A stretch of DNA of 44,503 bases, taken from positions 1 through 44,503 of the forward strand of contig JAGFIZ010000070.1 of NCBI GenBank assembly GCA_024103135.1. The letters run 5' to 3'. The position numbers and the translations under genes were made by a program. This stretch comes from Bradyrhizobiaceae bacterium. Its GTDB lineage: Bacteria > Bacteroidota > Ignavibacteria > Kapaibacteriales > Kapaibacteriaceae. Of this stretch, positions 16,666 to 23,734 are shown piece by piece. The notes below the pieces were generated by a model. The model was given only the letters and a program-made list of their open reading frames with translations, ran no database searches and was not told the DNA's origin. Positions within the stretch are counted from its first letter, which is position 1. Each line of letters begins with the position of its first letter.

Positions 16666-17139
16666 ATGTCTAAAACCAACGCAATTGGTCTTTCTGCGGC
16701 AAAAGCCACACAACTATCTGACGAACTCAACGAGCTCCTTGCGAACTTCTCTGTGTTCTACCAGAATGTTCGTGGGTTCCATTGGAATATCCGTGGTGAG
16801 AAGTTCTTCGAACTCCATGCAAAATTCGAAGAGTTGTATCTGGACTTGCAGCTGAAGATTGACGAGGTAGCAGAGCGTGTACTCACTCTTGGATCCGTTC
16901 CATATCACACCTACGCACAGTTCCTGGAAAGCAGCGTCGTCAAGCCTGCAGAGAGCATCAAAGATGGTCGGCGCGCCGTTCAACGCATTCTTGCTGCCTT
17001 CACCTCTATCCTCCTGCTCGAGCGTGAACTCCTTGAACTAGCACAGAAATCCGGCGATGAAGGAACTGCTGCTATGATGTCCGACTACATCCGTCAGCAC
17101 GAAAAACTCGTCTGGATGTACTCTGCCTTTCTTGGATAG
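16666..17139 (+). CDS. dps: Dps-family DNA-protecting ferritin-like protein
   Basis: The product has 157 residues, the normal Dps length. The ferroxidase signature is intact: QNVRGFHWNIRGEKFFELHAKFEE gives the His-x(11)-His spacing, and DLQLKIDEVAERVL gives the Asp/Glu residues contributed across the subunit interface. The C terminus EKLVWMYSAFLG is typical of Bacteroidota-type Dps. The protein would form a dodecamer that stores iron using hydrogen peroxide and coats DNA. It is the last plus-strand gene before the candidate origin region; a 7-bp hairpin straddling its stop codon has no U-tract and is not called as a terminator. Confidence 0.93.
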   Translation: MSKTNAIGLSAAKATQLSDELNELLANFSVFYQNVRGFHWNIRGEKFFELHAKFEELYLDLQLKIDEVAERVLTLGSVPYHTYAQFLESSVVKPAESIKDGRRAVQRILAAFTSILLLERELLELAQKSGDEGTAAMMSDYIRQHEKLVWMYSAFLG

Positions 17140-17771
17140 CTCTGCTTTCCACTATAGAGCTAGAACGAGTACAACCTTGTCACATGCTGACTTCGTCGTA
17201 AGATTTCTGATACGACATTGAGTGTTGGTGCGTGTTGGCTTTTGTGCTCTACATCAAGCAATTACCCATCGCTTTCGGGTGTGTACCAGGCATGTCGGTC
17301 GCTTTGTCCACGACGTTCTACCCAGATTGTTGATATCCACATCGTAGCGCTCTACGTATACGCTTGGTGTGTCTTGAGTTGTGCGCTTTATTCACATTTA
17401 TGAAAGCCATGTTACAGCAATCGTTGTATAACTGCTGAATACCTTCTGTCTTCGTTGATGAACATTGATGTCAACCAGTCGTTTTCCAAACTTGCTGAGC
17501 TGTACACAGACTTATTCACAGACTTGTTCAAGGTACTTGCATTTTTCGGCCTCATTGCAAGATCCTTTGAACAATGGAGTTGGATAAGCGCAATCAGTAC
17601 GGCTTTTTGAAATCCACACTATTCACACGCTTATATCACCATTTCTTATATCAAACTTTACACAATCAACTGAGGATGATTACCAAACGGTGGATTTGGT
17701 TCTCTGATTTTTGTGGTAGATGTTTGAATTAGTTCTGGTACGCTGACGATCGAACTGCTGATCTTTCCAGC
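17140..17771. other. Candidate replication origin (oriC): DnaA-box cluster in a 632-base gene-free region
   Basis: No credible gene lies between dps and serS. On the plus strand the stretch carries two perfect DnaA boxes TTATTCACA (17388-17396 and 17512-17520) and three one-mismatch sites: ATATCCACA (17333-17341), CTATTCACA (17619-17627) and CTTTACACA (17656-17664, against TTTTNCACA). Weaker 7/9 sites occur at 17610 (AAATCCACA) and, on the other strand, near 17579. By base counting, perfect TTATNCACA sites are expected only about 0.02 times in a region this size. AT-rich stretches around 17600-17730 could be the unwinding element. The nearby mnmG/mnmE genes and two parS-type sites support an origin neighbourhood. 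Against it, the flanking genes run toward the region rather than away, and dnaA, dnaN and parAB are not in the window. A DnaA-titration locus is the main alternative. Confidence 0.6.
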
Positions 17772-19037
17772 TTACTCAATAACTGAACACCCAACGTAGG
17801 GTACCAGCACGTCCGGCACTACGATCGAACCATTCTCCTGCTGATGTTGTTCGAGCAGAGATACAAGAATTCTCGGCGTTGCCAGGCCACTACCATTGAG
17901 CGTGTGAACGTATTCAGGCTTTGCTCCTGCTTCGGGTCTGAAGCGGATATTGGCTCTCCTAGCCTGGAAGGTTTCAAAGTTCGTGCATGAACTTACTTCT
18001 AGCCAGCGTTGCTCGGCTGGTGCCCAGACCTCGATGTCGTACGTCTTGGAACCACCAAACGTCATATCGCCCGTGCACAACAAGAGCACGCGATAGGTTA
18101 GGCCAAGCTTCGTAAGAAGCGATTCTACGTGAGCAACCATGCTCTCGAGGACGTTGTATGAATCTTCGGGACGGGCAAAGTGAACGAGCTCGACCTTGTT
18201 AAACTGGTGAACTCGAAGAAAGCCACGTGTTTCCTTGCCGTGGCTACCAGCTTCACGACGGAAACAACCAGAGTACCCAGCGTATGAGCGTGGAACATCG
18301 GCGGCGTCCAATACCTCGTCGCGATGATAGTTGGTGATTGGTACTTCTGCTGTTGGAATAAGGTACAGTTCGTCCTTTTCGACGAAGTACATTTCTTCTG
18401 CACTCTTCGGGAGTTGTCCTGTACCAAAGCCACTTGCAGGGTTGACAACGAACGGTGGAACGATTTCCGTATATCCTGCAGCAGCAGCGGCGTCCAACGA
18501 ATAGTTGATCAGCGCTCGTTCAAGGCGGGCTCCTTTACCAGTGAGAAAGCCGAAGCCACTTCCCGTGACCTTTGCACCGCGTTCGAAATCAAGCAAGCCA
18601 AGTGCAGCACCAATTTCTAGATGGTCTTTCCTGTACTGTCGTTCTGCACAACTGCCGCTGCGACGTACTTCAACGTTATCGTCAGCAGTTTTTCCAACAG
18701 GAACAGTATGGTGTGCAATGTTCGGCAGCCATGACATGGCTTCCGTTAGCTTGCCTTCCACGTCGCGTAGGTCGCTATCAAGTACCTTGATGTCGTCACC
18801 GATAGCTCTCACCTTCTCGATCAACTCGTCGGCTGGTTCACCGGCTTTTTTCTTTGCAGCGACTTCTAACGAGCTGCTGTTGCGCACAGCTTTTAGCGAC
18901 TCGACCTTACCAATGATTTCCCTTCGCTGTTCATCAAGCGTTAGAACAGCGTCAACCAACGAGTCGTCTGTGAGTTTCTTTCGACAATTGTCGCGAACCA
19001 TATCTGGCTGTTCGCGGACAACACGGATATCAAGCAT
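17772..19037 (-). CDS. serS: Seryl-tRNA synthetase
   Basis: The product has 421 residues, the standard length. The N-terminal coiled-coil arm (about residues 25-110, rich in Lys/Glu: REIIGKVESLKAVRN) binds the long variable arm of tRNA-Ser. The class II catalytic core follows: PPFVVNPAS, then motif 2 GCFRREAGSHGKETRGFLR and HQFNKVEL, then motif 3 SGLATPRILVSLLEQHQ. The enzyme charges tRNA-Ser with serine and also supplies Sec-tRNA where present. AGGTG lies about 6 bases before ATG. It sits 70 bases after mnmG on the same strand, so tRNA charging and modification genes are grouped here. Confidence 0.98.
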   Translation of the reverse strand: MLDIRVVREQPDMVRDNCRKKLTDDSLVDAVLTLDEQRREIIGKVESLKAVRNSSSLEVAAKKKAGEPADELIEKVRAIGDDIKVLDSDLRDVEGKLTEAMSWLPNIAHHTVPVGKTADDNVEVRRSGSCAERQYRKDHLEIGAALGLLDFERGAKVTGSGFGFLTGKGARLERALINYSLDAAAAAGYTEIVPPFVVNPASGFGTGQLPKSAEEMYFVEKDELYLIPTAEVPITNYHRDEVLDAADVPRSYAGYSGCFRREAGSHGKETRGFLRVHQFNKVELVHFARPEDSYNVLESMVAHVESLLTKLGLTYRVLLLCTGDMTFGGSKTYDIEVWAPAEQRWLEVSSCTNFETFQARRANIRFRPEAGAKPEYVHTLNGSGLATPRILVSLLEQHQQENGSIVVPDVLVPYVGCSVIE

Positions 19038-19107
19038 TGTGCACCTGTTAACGGCATTACGTAAAGCACAAAGATACTGATGCCATTAAGCGGGTTGGTA
19101 AAGTTCT

Positions 19108-20952
19108 TTACTTTAGGTAGATGCTTAGTATCGACACGTCCGACGCTGATACTCCAGCGATTCTAGAGGCCTGTCCTAAACTCGATGGACGAATGCGATT
19201 GAGCTTTACTCGTGCTTCAGACGACAATGACCGAACTGCATCGTATGAGAACCCTTCGGGTATGGCCTTATGTTCCAACTCCCGGAATCGCTCAACATCA
19301 CGCAATTGTTTGTCAATGTACCCCGCATATCTCACGCCTGTCTGAACGCGTTCAACGGCATCGGCATGTTCCTCGAGGAACGTTTGTGAAACGCTATTTG
19401 ACAGGCTCAACAACGCTTTCAATGGAACTGTTGGCCGCTTGGCTACGGTGTGAATCGTCGTAGATTCTCGAATCTCTTCTTCACCAAGACCTCTGAGCAT
19501 TTCATTGATTTGGTCTGGCGTGATCTTAGTGCTTAACGCCTGCTCGAATTGTTTGTCTACCTCCGTCATACGCAACCAACCATCATACGTCTGCCTACTC
19601 ACCAAGCCTGCCTCAAGCCCCTTTCCCATGAGTCGTGAATAGGCGGTATCAACACGAAGAAGAAGTCGGTACTCTGCAAGCGACGTGAAGATTCTGTATG
19701 GTTCTTCTGTGTTCTTGTTGACCAGATCATCAATCAACACGCCAATGTAGGCTTCAGATCGCTGAAGGGTAAGGGGCTCTCTACCTGTAAGCTTTAACGC
19801 CGCATTGGCACCGGCAATCAACCCCTGGGCAGCGGCCTCTTCATAGCCAGAGGTTCCGTTAATCTGGCCAGCAAAGTACAGTCCGTCAATGGCCTTGGTT
19901 TCAAGGGTAAACTTGAGTTGATAGGGGAAGAAGAAGTCATACTCGACTGCATAACCATAACGACGGATGTTGGCATGCTCCAACCCAGGAACCGTTCGCA
20001 AGGCCTGCTCTTGAATGCTAGCGGGCAAACTCGTAGAGAAACCGTTGACGTAGAGTGACGTGCCTGAAAGACTCTCTGGCTCGAGTACGATCTGATGCTG
20101 AGGTTTGTCGGCAAACCGACTGATCTTATCCTCGATTGACGGACAATACCGCGGCCCCGCACCTTCGATCTGCCCGGTAAACATGGGAGACTCGGCAAAC
20201 CCAGTCCTCAGAATATCATGCGTCTGCTCTGTTGTTTGTGTGGCATAACATGAGAGTCTGTTTCGTACTGAACGGGTATGAATTGAGAATGGGAGAGGAC
20301 GTGCATCGCCGTTGTGAAGCTCGAATTGGCTAAGATTGAGACCTTTAACGTCAATTCTTGGCGGTGTCCCGGTCTTTAACCGACCTTTCGTAAGTCCATG
20401 ATTTGTAAGAAGATCGCTAATTTTATCGGCTTGCTTTTCACCTATTCTTCCGCCCGACGTCGGCGTCAGGCCCGTCCACATTACCGCATTCAAAAACGTA
20501 CCCGAGCACAAGACTACTGCGCGTGCCTTGATGGTCTCGTTTGATGCCGTAAGCACGCCGCTTACAACCCCTTTCTCGACAAGGATCTCTACGACCTTTT
20601 CAGGGATGATCTGAAGGTTTGGAATGGAAAGCAGTAGGTTCTGAGCGAATAGGGGGTAGAGGTCGATGTCGTTCTGGCTTCGTGGCGACCACACAGCTGG
20701 CCCCTTGGACGTGTTGAGCATCTTGAACTGTAGGCCGCTGGCATCGGCAATGCGACCCATTACCCCGCCCAGAGCATCAATCTCCTTCACCAAGTGTCCC
20801 TTTGCACTCCCGCCAATAGAGGGGTTGCAGGACAATCTGCCAATCGTGTGCCGTTCCATAGAGACAAGGCCTACGCGCAGGCCATGTCTAGATGCAGCCC
20901 AACAGGCCTCAATACCTGCATGGCCACCGCCAATAACTAAAACATCAAACAT
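19108..20952 (-). CDS. mnmG: tRNA uridine-5-carboxymethylaminomethyl modification enzyme, FAD-binding subunit
   Basis: The product has 614 residues. The FAD-binding GGGHAG motif is at residues 8-13. The signature motifs [18 protein letters not shown] and GTPPRID are present, as are the catalytic-cysteine regions, with [27 protein letters not shown] near residue 365 and GYIDKQ in the C-terminal domain. With MnmE it makes the cmnm5U wobble modification on tRNAs. The start codon overlaps the first base of a perfect parS palindrome, which occupies the place where a ribosome site would be; no Shine-Dalgarno is seen. mnmG (gidA) lies near oriC in many bacteria. mnmE is two genes upstream on the same strand. 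Confidence 0.98.
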
Positions 20953-20967
20953 GTTTCACGTGAAACA
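20952..20967. promoter_or_regulatory. parS centromere-like site 1 (perfect 16-base palindrome)
   Basis: The sequence TGTTTCACGTGAAACA matches the widely conserved bacterial parS consensus (TGTTNCACGTGAAACA) at all 16 positions. ParB binds such sites and loads with CTP to organise and segregate the origin region. It overlaps the A of the mnmG start codon. The protein ParB is not encoded in the window. Confidence 0.85.
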
Positions 20968-20994
20968 ACTAGGGGGTTGGTAAACAAGCGAAAA

Positions 20995-21010
20995 CGTTCC
21001 ACGTGGAACA
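20995..21010. promoter_or_regulatory. parS-like site 2 (GTTCCACGTGGAAC core)
   Basis: The sequence CGTTCCACGTGGAACA is a 14-base perfect palindrome and differs at one position from the alternative parS form TGTTCCACGTGGAACA found in several phyla. It starts 27 bases after parS site 1 and ends one base before the stop codon of the GNAT gene. The close pair favours genuine ParB sites over chance. Confidence 0.75.
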
Positions 21011-21538
21011 CTATCGTAAGAACTTCGACATCAAGTACTCGTCCACGTAGCCATCCTGTAGCTTAACAGCGTGCGATTCTGTACCGTAGACGGAAAAGCC
21101 AAGTCGCAAGTACAAGCTGTAACTATCTTTGTTGTTTGTACTTACGGAAAGTTGAATTTGTTCGCATCCGATTTCTTCAGCGGCCATAATCACATTGCGG
21201 ACAAGGGCAGAGGCGATTCCGTGGCCACGCACGGCTGGTCTGACGTAGAGTCCCCAAATCCGTCCCTTATGCCGAAGCTTTGTAAGGTGGTGATCGCAGG
21301 AGAAACCGACCATACCAAGGATGGTCCGGTCGGCAGAAACTGCAGCAAGGAGGTATTGGTAGGGGAAGAGGACGAATTTCTCGTACCGCTGTTCCTTACT
21401 CAGAATGGATAATGAGTCAAACCAATCGTAGTCCGAGCCGAAGATTTCCGGCGCATTTTTCAAGGCATCGCCCTGAATGTCAAGAAATGCCGCAAAATCA
21501 GCAGATTCAAGGGGTCTAATGGCGTAAGGTTGACTCAT
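21011..21538 (-). CDS. GNAT-family N-acetyltransferase
   Basis: The product has 175 residues. The acetyl-CoA-binding motif A region is WGLYVRPAVRGHGIASALVRNVIMAAEEIGC, with the R/Q-x-x-G-x-G/A pattern (RGHGIA). Motif B follows at IQLSVSTNNKDSYSLYLRLGFSVYG. The N-terminal half begins AIRPLESADFAAF. The substrate cannot be told; it could be a small molecule or a protein N terminus. The gene lies 6 bases after mnmE and directly before parS-like site 2, so it is read with mnmE on the minus strand. It may ride with the tRNA-modification genes without a shared task. Confidence 0.88.
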   Translation of the reverse strand: MSQPYAIRPLESADFAAFLDIQGDALKNAPEIFGSDYDWFDSLSILSKEQRYEKFVLFPYQYLLAAVSADRTILGMVGFSCDHHLTKLRHKGRIWGLYVRPAVRGHGIASALVRNVIMAAEEIGCEQIQLSVSTNNKDSYSLYLRLGFSVYGTESHAVKLQDGYVDEYLMSKFLR

Positions 21539-21544
21539 GAATAC

Positions 21545-22921
21545 TTACTTTCCAATGCAAAAACGACTAAAAACCTGATCCAAAACATCGGGATTCCACG
21601 TCTCACCAGTGATTTCCCCGATAACTCGAACTGCCGATCGGACATCAATAGCAATGAGATCAGCCGGGATGTTGTGCTGAAGTGAGCGTAATGTGGATTC
21701 CAGCGTGGTCTTGATGGTTTGTAACAAGGCTGCCTGTCTGGCATTGACCAATGCATCCATTACACCATCGTATGATGCAGAAACTGCTTCGGACAAGATA
21801 CCACGCAATGCCGACACGCCCTCCGGATGCAGGGAACTCACCGCAACGTGTCCTGCAGGGACTAACGAGTCCCACTGTCCTAGGTCCATGTTCAGAAGGT
21901 CCATCTTGTTCTGAACCGTAACAACCTTATGTCCAGGAAACTTGTCTTCGAGTTCGGCGCAAAGCCCCATGCTATGGGCAAAACCAGCCGAAGCATCGTT
22001 TACAACGAGGACAAGGTTGCTCTGTTCAATCTGTGAGCGAGTAATCCTAATGCCCTGCATTTCTATCGTATCAGCCGTATCTCGCAACCCTGCCGTATCA
22101 ACTAGGTGCACAGTACAGCCATCGATCACCAGTTGTTCCTGAATATAGTCTCGTGTTGTACCGGCAACAGGACTAACAATGGCACGATCTCGGCCAAGAA
22201 GGGCATTAAACAAGGAACTCTTTCCTGCATTTGGATAGCCAGCAATGGCCACCTGAAAACCGCTACGAAGCACTTCAGCAGCGCGGGCAGAGTCCAGAAG
22301 GTTGCTCACCACACTAAGTCCTTTGATTACGGCCTTGGCAAAGGCCTCTCTGCTTACAAACTCATAGCCTTCTTCCGAAAAATCCAATTCAACCTCAAGG
22401 AGCCCAGCAGCAGAAAGGAGTTGGTAGCGCAGGTCAGACAACTGCGCAGTAAACCCGCCAGCAAGCTGTCTGGCAGCTGTTTGAGCTCCAGGTACACTCT
22501 GACTATGGATGATATCGGCAACGGCCTCTACTTGGGTTAAATCGAGCTTATGATTTACGAAGGCTCTGCGAGTAAACTCACCAGGAAGCGCAGGTCGGAC
22601 ACCCCAGTCCACCAATGATGCGATGATCTGGTTTACAACGAACACACCACCATGGCAACCAATTTCTACAACATCTTCGCCCGTGTAACTGTTCGGGGCA
22701 AGAAAGAGGGTGCAGGTGACCTCGTCGATTCTTGTTGTTCCTGCCATCCACCAGCCCACGCGAATGGTGTGGGAGGGGGCTTGGGACAATGCAACGGCTG
22801 ATGTAAAGCACGACGAGCAAACAGCGACAGCATTCGGACCGCTTACGCGTATCACAGCAAGGCCAGCAACACCCGGCGGTGTTGCCAATGCACAGATTGT
22901 ATCGCCGTGGAGTTCGTTCAT
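21545..22921 (-). CDS. mnmE: tRNA modification GTPase
   Basis: The product has 458 residues. ATG at 22921 is chosen because MNELHGDTICALATPPG matches the usual MnmE N terminus; a TTG at 22948 would add 9 unrelated residues. The N-terminal tetrahydrofolate-binding domain (1-115) is followed by a helical domain holding the GTPase: G1 GYPNAGKSS (228-236), AGTTRD (253-258), DTAG (275-278) and the NKMD base-recognition motif. The C-terminal FCIGK carries the CxGK cysteine involved in modification. It partners MnmG in cmnm5U34 synthesis. GNAT and mnmG genes follow on the same strand. Confidence 0.98.
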   Translation of the reverse strand: MNELHGDTICALATPPGVAGLAVIRVSGPNAVAVCSSCFTSAVALSQAPSHTIRVGWWMAGTTRIDEVTCTLFLAPNSYTGEDVVEIGCHGGVFVVNQIIASLVDWGVRPALPGEFTRRAFVNHKLDLTQVEAVADIIHSQSVPGAQTAARQLAGGFTAQLSDLRYQLLSAAGLLEVELDFSEEGYEFVSREAFAKAVIKGLSVVSNLLDSARAAEVLRSGFQVAIAGYPNAGKSSLFNALLGRDRAIVSPVAGTTRDYIQEQLVIDGCTVHLVDTAGLRDTADTIEMQGIRITRSQIEQSNLVLVVNDASAGFAHSMGLCAELEDKFPGHKVVTVQNKMDLLNMDLGQWDSLVPAGHVAVSSLHPEGVSALRGILSEAVSASYDGVMDALVNARQAALLQTIKTTLESTLRSLQHNIPADLIAIDVRSAVRVIGEITGETWNPDVLDQVFSRFCIGK

Positions 22922-22990
22922 CGAAGCATGCAAGTTACATTGCAGCAAATAACAAGTCGACCAACCAGATACTAAACAAGTTTAGCATCG

Positions 22991-23734
22991 ATGGGCTACC
23001 CGACCCCTATTGAATTTCATCTACCAACAGTAAGCTCAACCAATGACTATGCCAAAGAGTTGTTGGTAACGTACCCCTACGTGTTTGTTAGTGCAATGCA
23101 TCAAACAGCAGGTAGAGGACGTAAAGGTAGATCCTGGTCGGGTGACTACGGTCTGAACGCCTATTGTTCACTAGGTATTCGGCATACAGTTCAACTCTCG
23201 TACGAAGATCTCTCTTCATACATGGCCCGCGGTGCATTGGCAGCAATTGATGCACTGCGGTCGATAACGGACAGAATACAGTTTCGGTTAAAGTACCCAA
23301 ACGATGTTCATGCACTCACTCCGGATGGTTGGAAGAAGATCTGTGGAGTACTGGTTGAACATGAGTTCCAGGGCGATCGATGTATGACATCGGTGATTGG
23401 GATTGGTGTGAACGTGCAACAAGAACGGTTTCCAGAGACGATTTCAACAATCGGTACGTCACTTTACCAACTAGGTGTTCACGCTAACGTGCTTGTAGTT
23501 CTTGAGTGCTTGAAGTCAAACATTACCGTTCAGCGCATGAGGCCATGGCACGAGGTTTACGAAGAGTGGATCAGGGAACTTGATCTTCAGCATAAACAGC
23601 TTAGTATCGCAGGAGAAGAAGGCATCTGGAAGGTTTTGGAAGTCTTGCCAGATGGGCGGTTGGTAGCAACGAATGAACGTACAACAAAAGAACGGATCAT
23701 AACCGATGGCGACACGATACGATACCTTGATTGA
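22991..23734 (+). CDS. birA: Biotin--[acetyl-CoA-carboxylase] ligase
   Basis: The product has 247 residues. The biotin protein ligase catalytic domain is complete: FHLPTVSSTNDYAKELL, then QTAGRGRKGRSW (the biotinyl-AMP-binding GRGRxGR loop), then LKYPNDV and KICGVLVEHEF, and GIGVNVQ. The small C-terminal SH3-like domain follows. The N-terminal winged helix of E. coli BirA is missing, so this is a group I ligase that does not repress transcription. It attaches biotin to the carrier domain of acetyl-CoA carboxylase. The gene overlaps coaX by 29 bases on the same strand, a pairing also common in related phyla. Confidence 0.95.
   Translation: MGYPTPIEFHLPTVSSTNDYAKELLVTYPYVFVSAMHQTAGRGRKGRSWSGDYGLNAYCSLGIRHTVQLSYEDLSSYMARGALAAIDALRSITDRIQFRLKYPNDVHALTPDGWKKICGVLVEHEFQGDRCMTSVIGIGVNVQQERFPETISTIGTSLYQLGVHANVLVVLECLKSNITVQRMRPWHEVYEEWIRELDLQHKQLSIAGEEGIWKVLEVLPDGRLVATNERTTKERIITDGDTIRYLD

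Follow-up and report, generated by a model that had tools for sequence, protein, structure and literature searches.

Does the gene-free region upstream of neither of its neighbours, between a dps-like gene and serS (17140–17771), hold the replication origin of a bacterial chromosome, or does its cluster of DnaA boxes serve another purpose, such as titrating DnaA? The region lies in a 44,503-nucleotide stretch of DNA (the whole stretch that was analysed, hereafter the window), which is contig C41 of a 2.71-Mb genome (G000) in 137 contigs with an estimated completeness of 100%. An earlier reading made from the sequence alone had proposed the region as a candidate oriC, with the titrating locus as a caveat.

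DnaA boxes in a gene-free region between convergent genes

Four DnaA boxes, two of them perfect and two with one mismatch, are present between 17333 and 17627, all on the + strand. The perfect boxes (TTATTCACA) are at 17388–17396 and 17512–17520, and the one-mismatch boxes are ATATCCACA (17333–17341) and CTATTCACA (17619–17627). All four had been listed in the sequence-only reading and were recovered as described, but a fifth site given there as a one-mismatch box, CTTTACACA at 17656, has two mismatches to TTATNCACA. As judged from the match and the family alignment, CTATTCACA is the second box of a tandem pair; the first, AAATCCACA (17610–17618, + strand), is a weak box with two mismatches whose position is conserved in the family. 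When the 632-base region was shuffled 1000 times with its dinucleotides preserved, a pair of perfect sites never arose (mean, 0.033); at least four sites with at most one mismatch occurred in 1.4% of the shuffles. Over the whole window one-mismatch boxes are not enriched (26 found, 38.5 expected), indicating that the signal lies in the clustering of the boxes and not in their number.

The flanking genes converge on the region, as had been pointed out: a dps-like gene of the ferritin family (16666–17139, + strand) ends on one side and serS (17772–19037, − strand, TIGR00414), a constant neighbour in relatives, ends on the other. Since both genes point toward the site, replication forks leaving it would meet both head-on. 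The genes mnmG (19108–20952, − strand, TIGR00136) and mnmE (21545–22948, − strand, TIGR00450) are located nearby, again as previously described. We also observed that serS, mnmG, a GNAT gene and mnmE (17772–22948) would all be head-on to the outgoing fork, which is unusual for housekeeping genes. The AT-rich stretch claimed for the region corresponds to a modest rise, with 72% AT in one 40-base bin (17620–17659) and 57% AT over the region as a whole. The trinucleotide-like, AT-rich sequence adjoining the tandem boxes (17628–17660) is a candidate unwinding element.

GC skew in a genome of the same genus

Cumulative GC skew, which had been suggested as a check, was run as a sampled skew in G005, a same-genus genome that consists of one contig of 2.84 Mb, for which 40 stretches were read, each 20 kb long and together making up 28% of the genome. 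The interpolated minimum (~1.475 Mb) falls on the site orthologous to 17140–17771, the serS gene of G005 being located at 1,473,796–1,475,055, and the maximum, near 60 kb, is nearly opposite. When random 75% subsets of the stretches were used, 969 of 1000 minima remained within 1.4–1.6 Mb. Negative values prevail between 0.07 and 1.46 Mb, and positive values prevail from 1.485 Mb onward, around to position 0. Five stretches break this pattern, those at 0.56, 1.12 and 1.26 Mb being positive and those at 1.96 and 2.24 Mb negative. Contig C9 of G008, read in part, has no clear switch in skew, and contig C15 of G027 is mixed and gives no clear answer.

A conserved core 3′ of serS

A compact core at 17608–17649 (− strand), just 3′ of serS, is the heart of this probable origin; it had been missed in the earlier note. 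In alignments of serS 3′ flanks from f1, the family of the window's genome, the shared element is a trinucleotide-rich stretch followed by two abutting DnaA boxes, and in many members the trinucleotide-rich stretch is itself preceded by a pyrimidine/purine-rich one. The aligned core was detected in 20 of the 21 family genomes examined. The remaining genome, G006, aligns poorly at the core and was for this reason omitted from the position-specific motif model, which was trained on 15 f1 sequences from other genera only; all five genomes belonging to the same genus as the window were kept out of training. With this model, the core of G000 scored 30.9 bits, whereas the runner-up among 355,494 positions (the window and 12 other stretches, a part of the genome) scored 9.7. 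Similarly, the orthologous site of G005 scored 24.4 bits and the runner-up among 1,596,720 positions (40 stretches) 11.1. The core is therefore a single outlier in both genomes under a model built from other genera. Its conservation is not uniform within the family, as can be seen from the score of 16.0 bits in G003 and the poor alignment of G006; weak cores or few boxes were noted in these two genomes and in G010.

Searching 60 genomes with a strict tandem-box pattern gave 58 matches. Thirteen lie no more than 300 bp 3′ of serS, and of these 12 are among the 23 f1 matches and one is in G051 (family f2). The pattern has no exact match at the window's core, and its sole match in G000 is on contig C92. 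Because the core departs from the strict pattern, the position-specific model was used instead.

Trinucleotide units were assessed by a criterion for the basal unwinding system (BUS), namely at least three.A. trinucleotides no more than 16 bases from a DnaA box. The window's core has three consecutive units of the DnaA-trio type with a spacer of 14, which is not distinctive, as 23% of control positions reach that number; across f1, at least three units were found in 16 of 20 cores (relatives and window), compared with the same 23% of control positions. The f1 units are mostly 3′-TAG-5′, and the run is weak in the window's genome and clearer in relatives. In many of these relatives (e.g. at loci L249 and L252), a pyrimidine tract and then a purine tract, together nearly an inverted repeat, lie between serS and the core. 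This arrangement is absent from the window and may act in the relatives as a terminator or an unwinding element.

The cumulative skew of the window itself has its minimum at 23,053, which is 5.4 kb from the core and not on it. This raises the possibility that replication starts near but outside the region, for example at mnmG/parS or at the mnmE–birA junction, where the window's skew turns. Sampled skew in G024, a genome of family f3 (20 stretches), is in keeping with such a position, its minimum at 145 kb being near mnmE–parS–mnmG (120–125 kb) and not near serS. However, a lone site with at most one mismatch (18642, inside serS) occurs between 17628 and 28738 of the window, and the core model yields nothing comparable. 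We consider an origin near but outside 17140–17771 very unlikely.

Location of parS, dnaA and dnaN

Of two parS-type sites attributed to the neighbourhood, that at 20952–20967 is perfect, whereas the other, at 20995, has three mismatches. A genome-wide match showed that the perfect site, 1.9 kb from serS, is the only one of its kind in the window's genome. Such sites are common, though not universal, near origins. At least one perfect parS was found in 22 of 60 genomes, six of which belong to f1, and in all six it is 1.9–4.6 kb from serS. Perfect sites within 3.4 kb of serS were also found in G031 (f10) and G039 (f2). In f5, parS is distant from serS, by 56 kb in G042 and on another contig in G048. 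The parB gene of G005 (G005:C1:2816923-2817432) is not beside the proposed origin but on the terminus side, ~85 kb from the skew maximum and 1.34 Mb from origin and parS.

Adjacency to dnaA or dnaN, which is common for origins but not defining, is lacking. In the window's genome dnaA is on contig C101 and dnaN on contig C97, both away from the candidate origin, and locating the two genes in G005, as had been recommended, placed dnaA 149 kb and dnaN 321 kb from the site. Among 35 dnaA loci examined, the 11 from f1 genomes were all without a box cluster, and an origin at dnaA was rejected on this ground.

The caveat that the region might titrate DnaA, as datA does in E. coli, and that replication starts at another place, can draw on the convergence of the flanking genes, on the distant dnaA and dnaN, and on the boxes being fewer and less perfect than those on contig C76 (see below). 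A datA-like locus would be a box cluster away from the origin, but the G005 ortholog of the present one coincides with the skew minimum. Moreover, its core is ordered, adjoins an AT-rich stretch and is conserved across genera, and the unique parS is nearby. For these reasons the titration reading was rejected as very unlikely.

Perfect DnaA boxes at ftsQ-ftsA-ftsZ

The densest group of perfect boxes found in the window's genome comprises four within 800 bp (G000:C76:6229-7019) and sits at the start of the ftsQ-ftsA-ftsZ gene set (a match to the ftsQ family was obtained in G005 only). A denser cluster elsewhere had been named as a finding that would speak against an origin at 17140–17771. Such a cluster indeed exists, but its counterpart in G005, at 2.319 Mb, is in the middle of one arm, ~0.85 Mb from the skew minimum. 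The group includes an inverted pair of perfect boxes (G000:C76:6848-7019) measuring 172-174 bases end to end; a pair at nearly fixed spacing occurs once each in 6 of 60 genomes, all in f1. Its gene context was read in G000 and G005, where it flanks a TAnnTTTG-like motif that we take to be a promoter motif. Despite the density of the group and the retention of the pair in six genomes, an origin on C76 is extremely unlikely and was rejected, since the group adjoins ftsQ-ftsA-ftsZ, its G005 counterpart is mid-arm, and control of division genes by DnaA fits better with a pair that flanks a putative promoter. The inverted pair at ftsQ is a candidate DnaA-controlled division promoter. According to a review (PMC8203912), DnaA has been described to act on ftsZ or to bind at ftsL in Caulobacter and Bacillus, and the E. 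coli boxes upstream of ftsZ were found to have no role in ftsZ transcription.

Boxes 3′ of serS in other families

Among named records, the nearest serS is that of Candidatus Kapaibacterium sp. ZLKRG33 (65% identity), and its 3′ flank resembles that of G014, a member of f1, in having boxes at nearly identical positions. From the serS similarity and these flank boxes, we infer that the family is of Kapabacteria type. When 1-2 kb of 3′ flank was read, at least four boxes per 400 bp were found 3′ of serS in 6/21 genomes of f1, 1/6 of f2, 3/5 of f5, 1/1 of f6, 2/2 of f8 and 1/1 of f10, and in none of f3 (0/6), f4 (0/2), f7 (0/6) or f9 (0/5). Besides f1, five families of the order have such a cluster on this side of serS. 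The serS tallies cover genomes with serS in one piece (50 in one tally and 55 in the other, from 60); G001, G018, G034, G037 and G058 were dropped, with serS missing, partial or represented only by a paralog. For 30 genomes both flanks were available; here, the 1 kb on the 5′ side of serS contains no more than three boxes per 400 bp and usually none, a soft control, as in the family this flank consists largely of coding sequence. At named loci from many phyla, at least three boxes in the 500 bp 3′ of serS were found in 4 of 50, one of the four being the Kapaibacterium record; these 50 were counted of 80, and some of the remaining 30 had a short 3′ flank.

In f5 and f6, mnmG was not found within 6-8 kb of serS. 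In G024 (f3), four boxes in 400 bp are at 126.3 kb and serS is at 1.966 Mb. A box group of this genome (L226:16284-16684), in an apparently gene-free stretch ~1.1 kb after mnmG and near the sampled skew minimum, is a candidate f3 origin. In G031, seven boxes in 400 bp (L254:6313-6713) lie ~0.6-1 kb 3′ of serS, and a perfect parS is located 3.4 kb past that gene; the group is a candidate f10 origin. The surroundings of the origin thus seem to vary from family to family, with linkage to serS in several and to mnmG in at least one. A tentative generalization, which may well fail, is that at least six families of the Kapabacteria-type order have an origin linked to the 3′ end of serS and not to dnaA-dnaN, with the essential tRNA-related genes serS, mnmG and mnmE head-on to the fork in the window's family and an unwinding repeat (3′-TAG-5′) of polarity opposite to that of the known DnaA-trio.

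DISCUSSION

We conclude that 17140–17771 is very probably the chromosomal oriC of a Kapabacteria-type genome. The skew of G005, the cross-genus core at the orthologous position in relatives, the unique perfect parS and the lack of boxes at dnaA all support this reading. As an element it is ordinary; what is unusual is its location, between convergent genes and far from dnaA.

Taking the observed sites, their conservation, the same-genus skew minimum and the location of parS together, initiation might proceed as follows. DnaA would bind the tandem boxes (17610–17627) and the boxes at 17512, 17388 and 17333, and a DnaA oligomer would extend from the tandem pair into the adjoining AT-rich stretch toward serS, opening it. 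Helicase would be loaded at the opened stretch and forks would leave the origin both ways, provided that firing is bidirectional. ParB bound at parS near mnmG could then move the newly copied origin.

The region provides a concrete candidate origin in a lineage for which metagenomes are the main source of knowledge. Its core motif is usable for origin finding in fragmented genomes, and the position of the origin would allow the growth rates of these uncultured bacteria to be estimated from read depth. Of note, the proposed origin is detached from dnaA-dnaN and tied to serS. In the open-access literature searched, we found no report of a Kapabacteria replication origin or of an oriC with serS and a DnaA box.

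The oriC of E. coli is located beside mnmG (gidA) and away from dnaA. The origin proposed here resembles that layout in its position near mnmG, in having dnaA elsewhere and in the orientation of the boxes relative to the AT-rich side. For Gammaproteobacteria, placement of the origin at gidA is given in the DoriC 10.0 paper (PMC6323995). Unlike in E. coli, serS is present here between origin and mnmG, and the neighbouring genes converge on the origin. The orientation of the B. subtilis-type BUS is the same as here. According to Pelliciari and colleagues (PMC8287927), this system consists of two DnaA boxes, a spacer and DnaA-trios, and the tandem boxes guide DnaA onto the adjacent trinucleotides, opening the duplex. 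The present core has tandem boxes adjoining an AT-rich, trinucleotide-rich stretch in the same order as that described there (PMC8287927), but the repeats of its relatives are mostly 3′-TAG-5′, in contrast to the favoured 3′-GAT-5′, and the repeat run is weak in this genome. Within the class Ignavibacteria, the likely origin of Melioribacter roseus is reported to lie between dnaA and dnaN (PMC3534657). Both that prediction and the present one define the origin by DnaA boxes and a transition in skew, whereas the distances to dnaA (149 kb) and dnaN (321 kb) in G005 set the present origin apart. Since the origin's neighbours differ from those of Melioribacter, the forces that keep or break the linkage between origin and genes can be compared.
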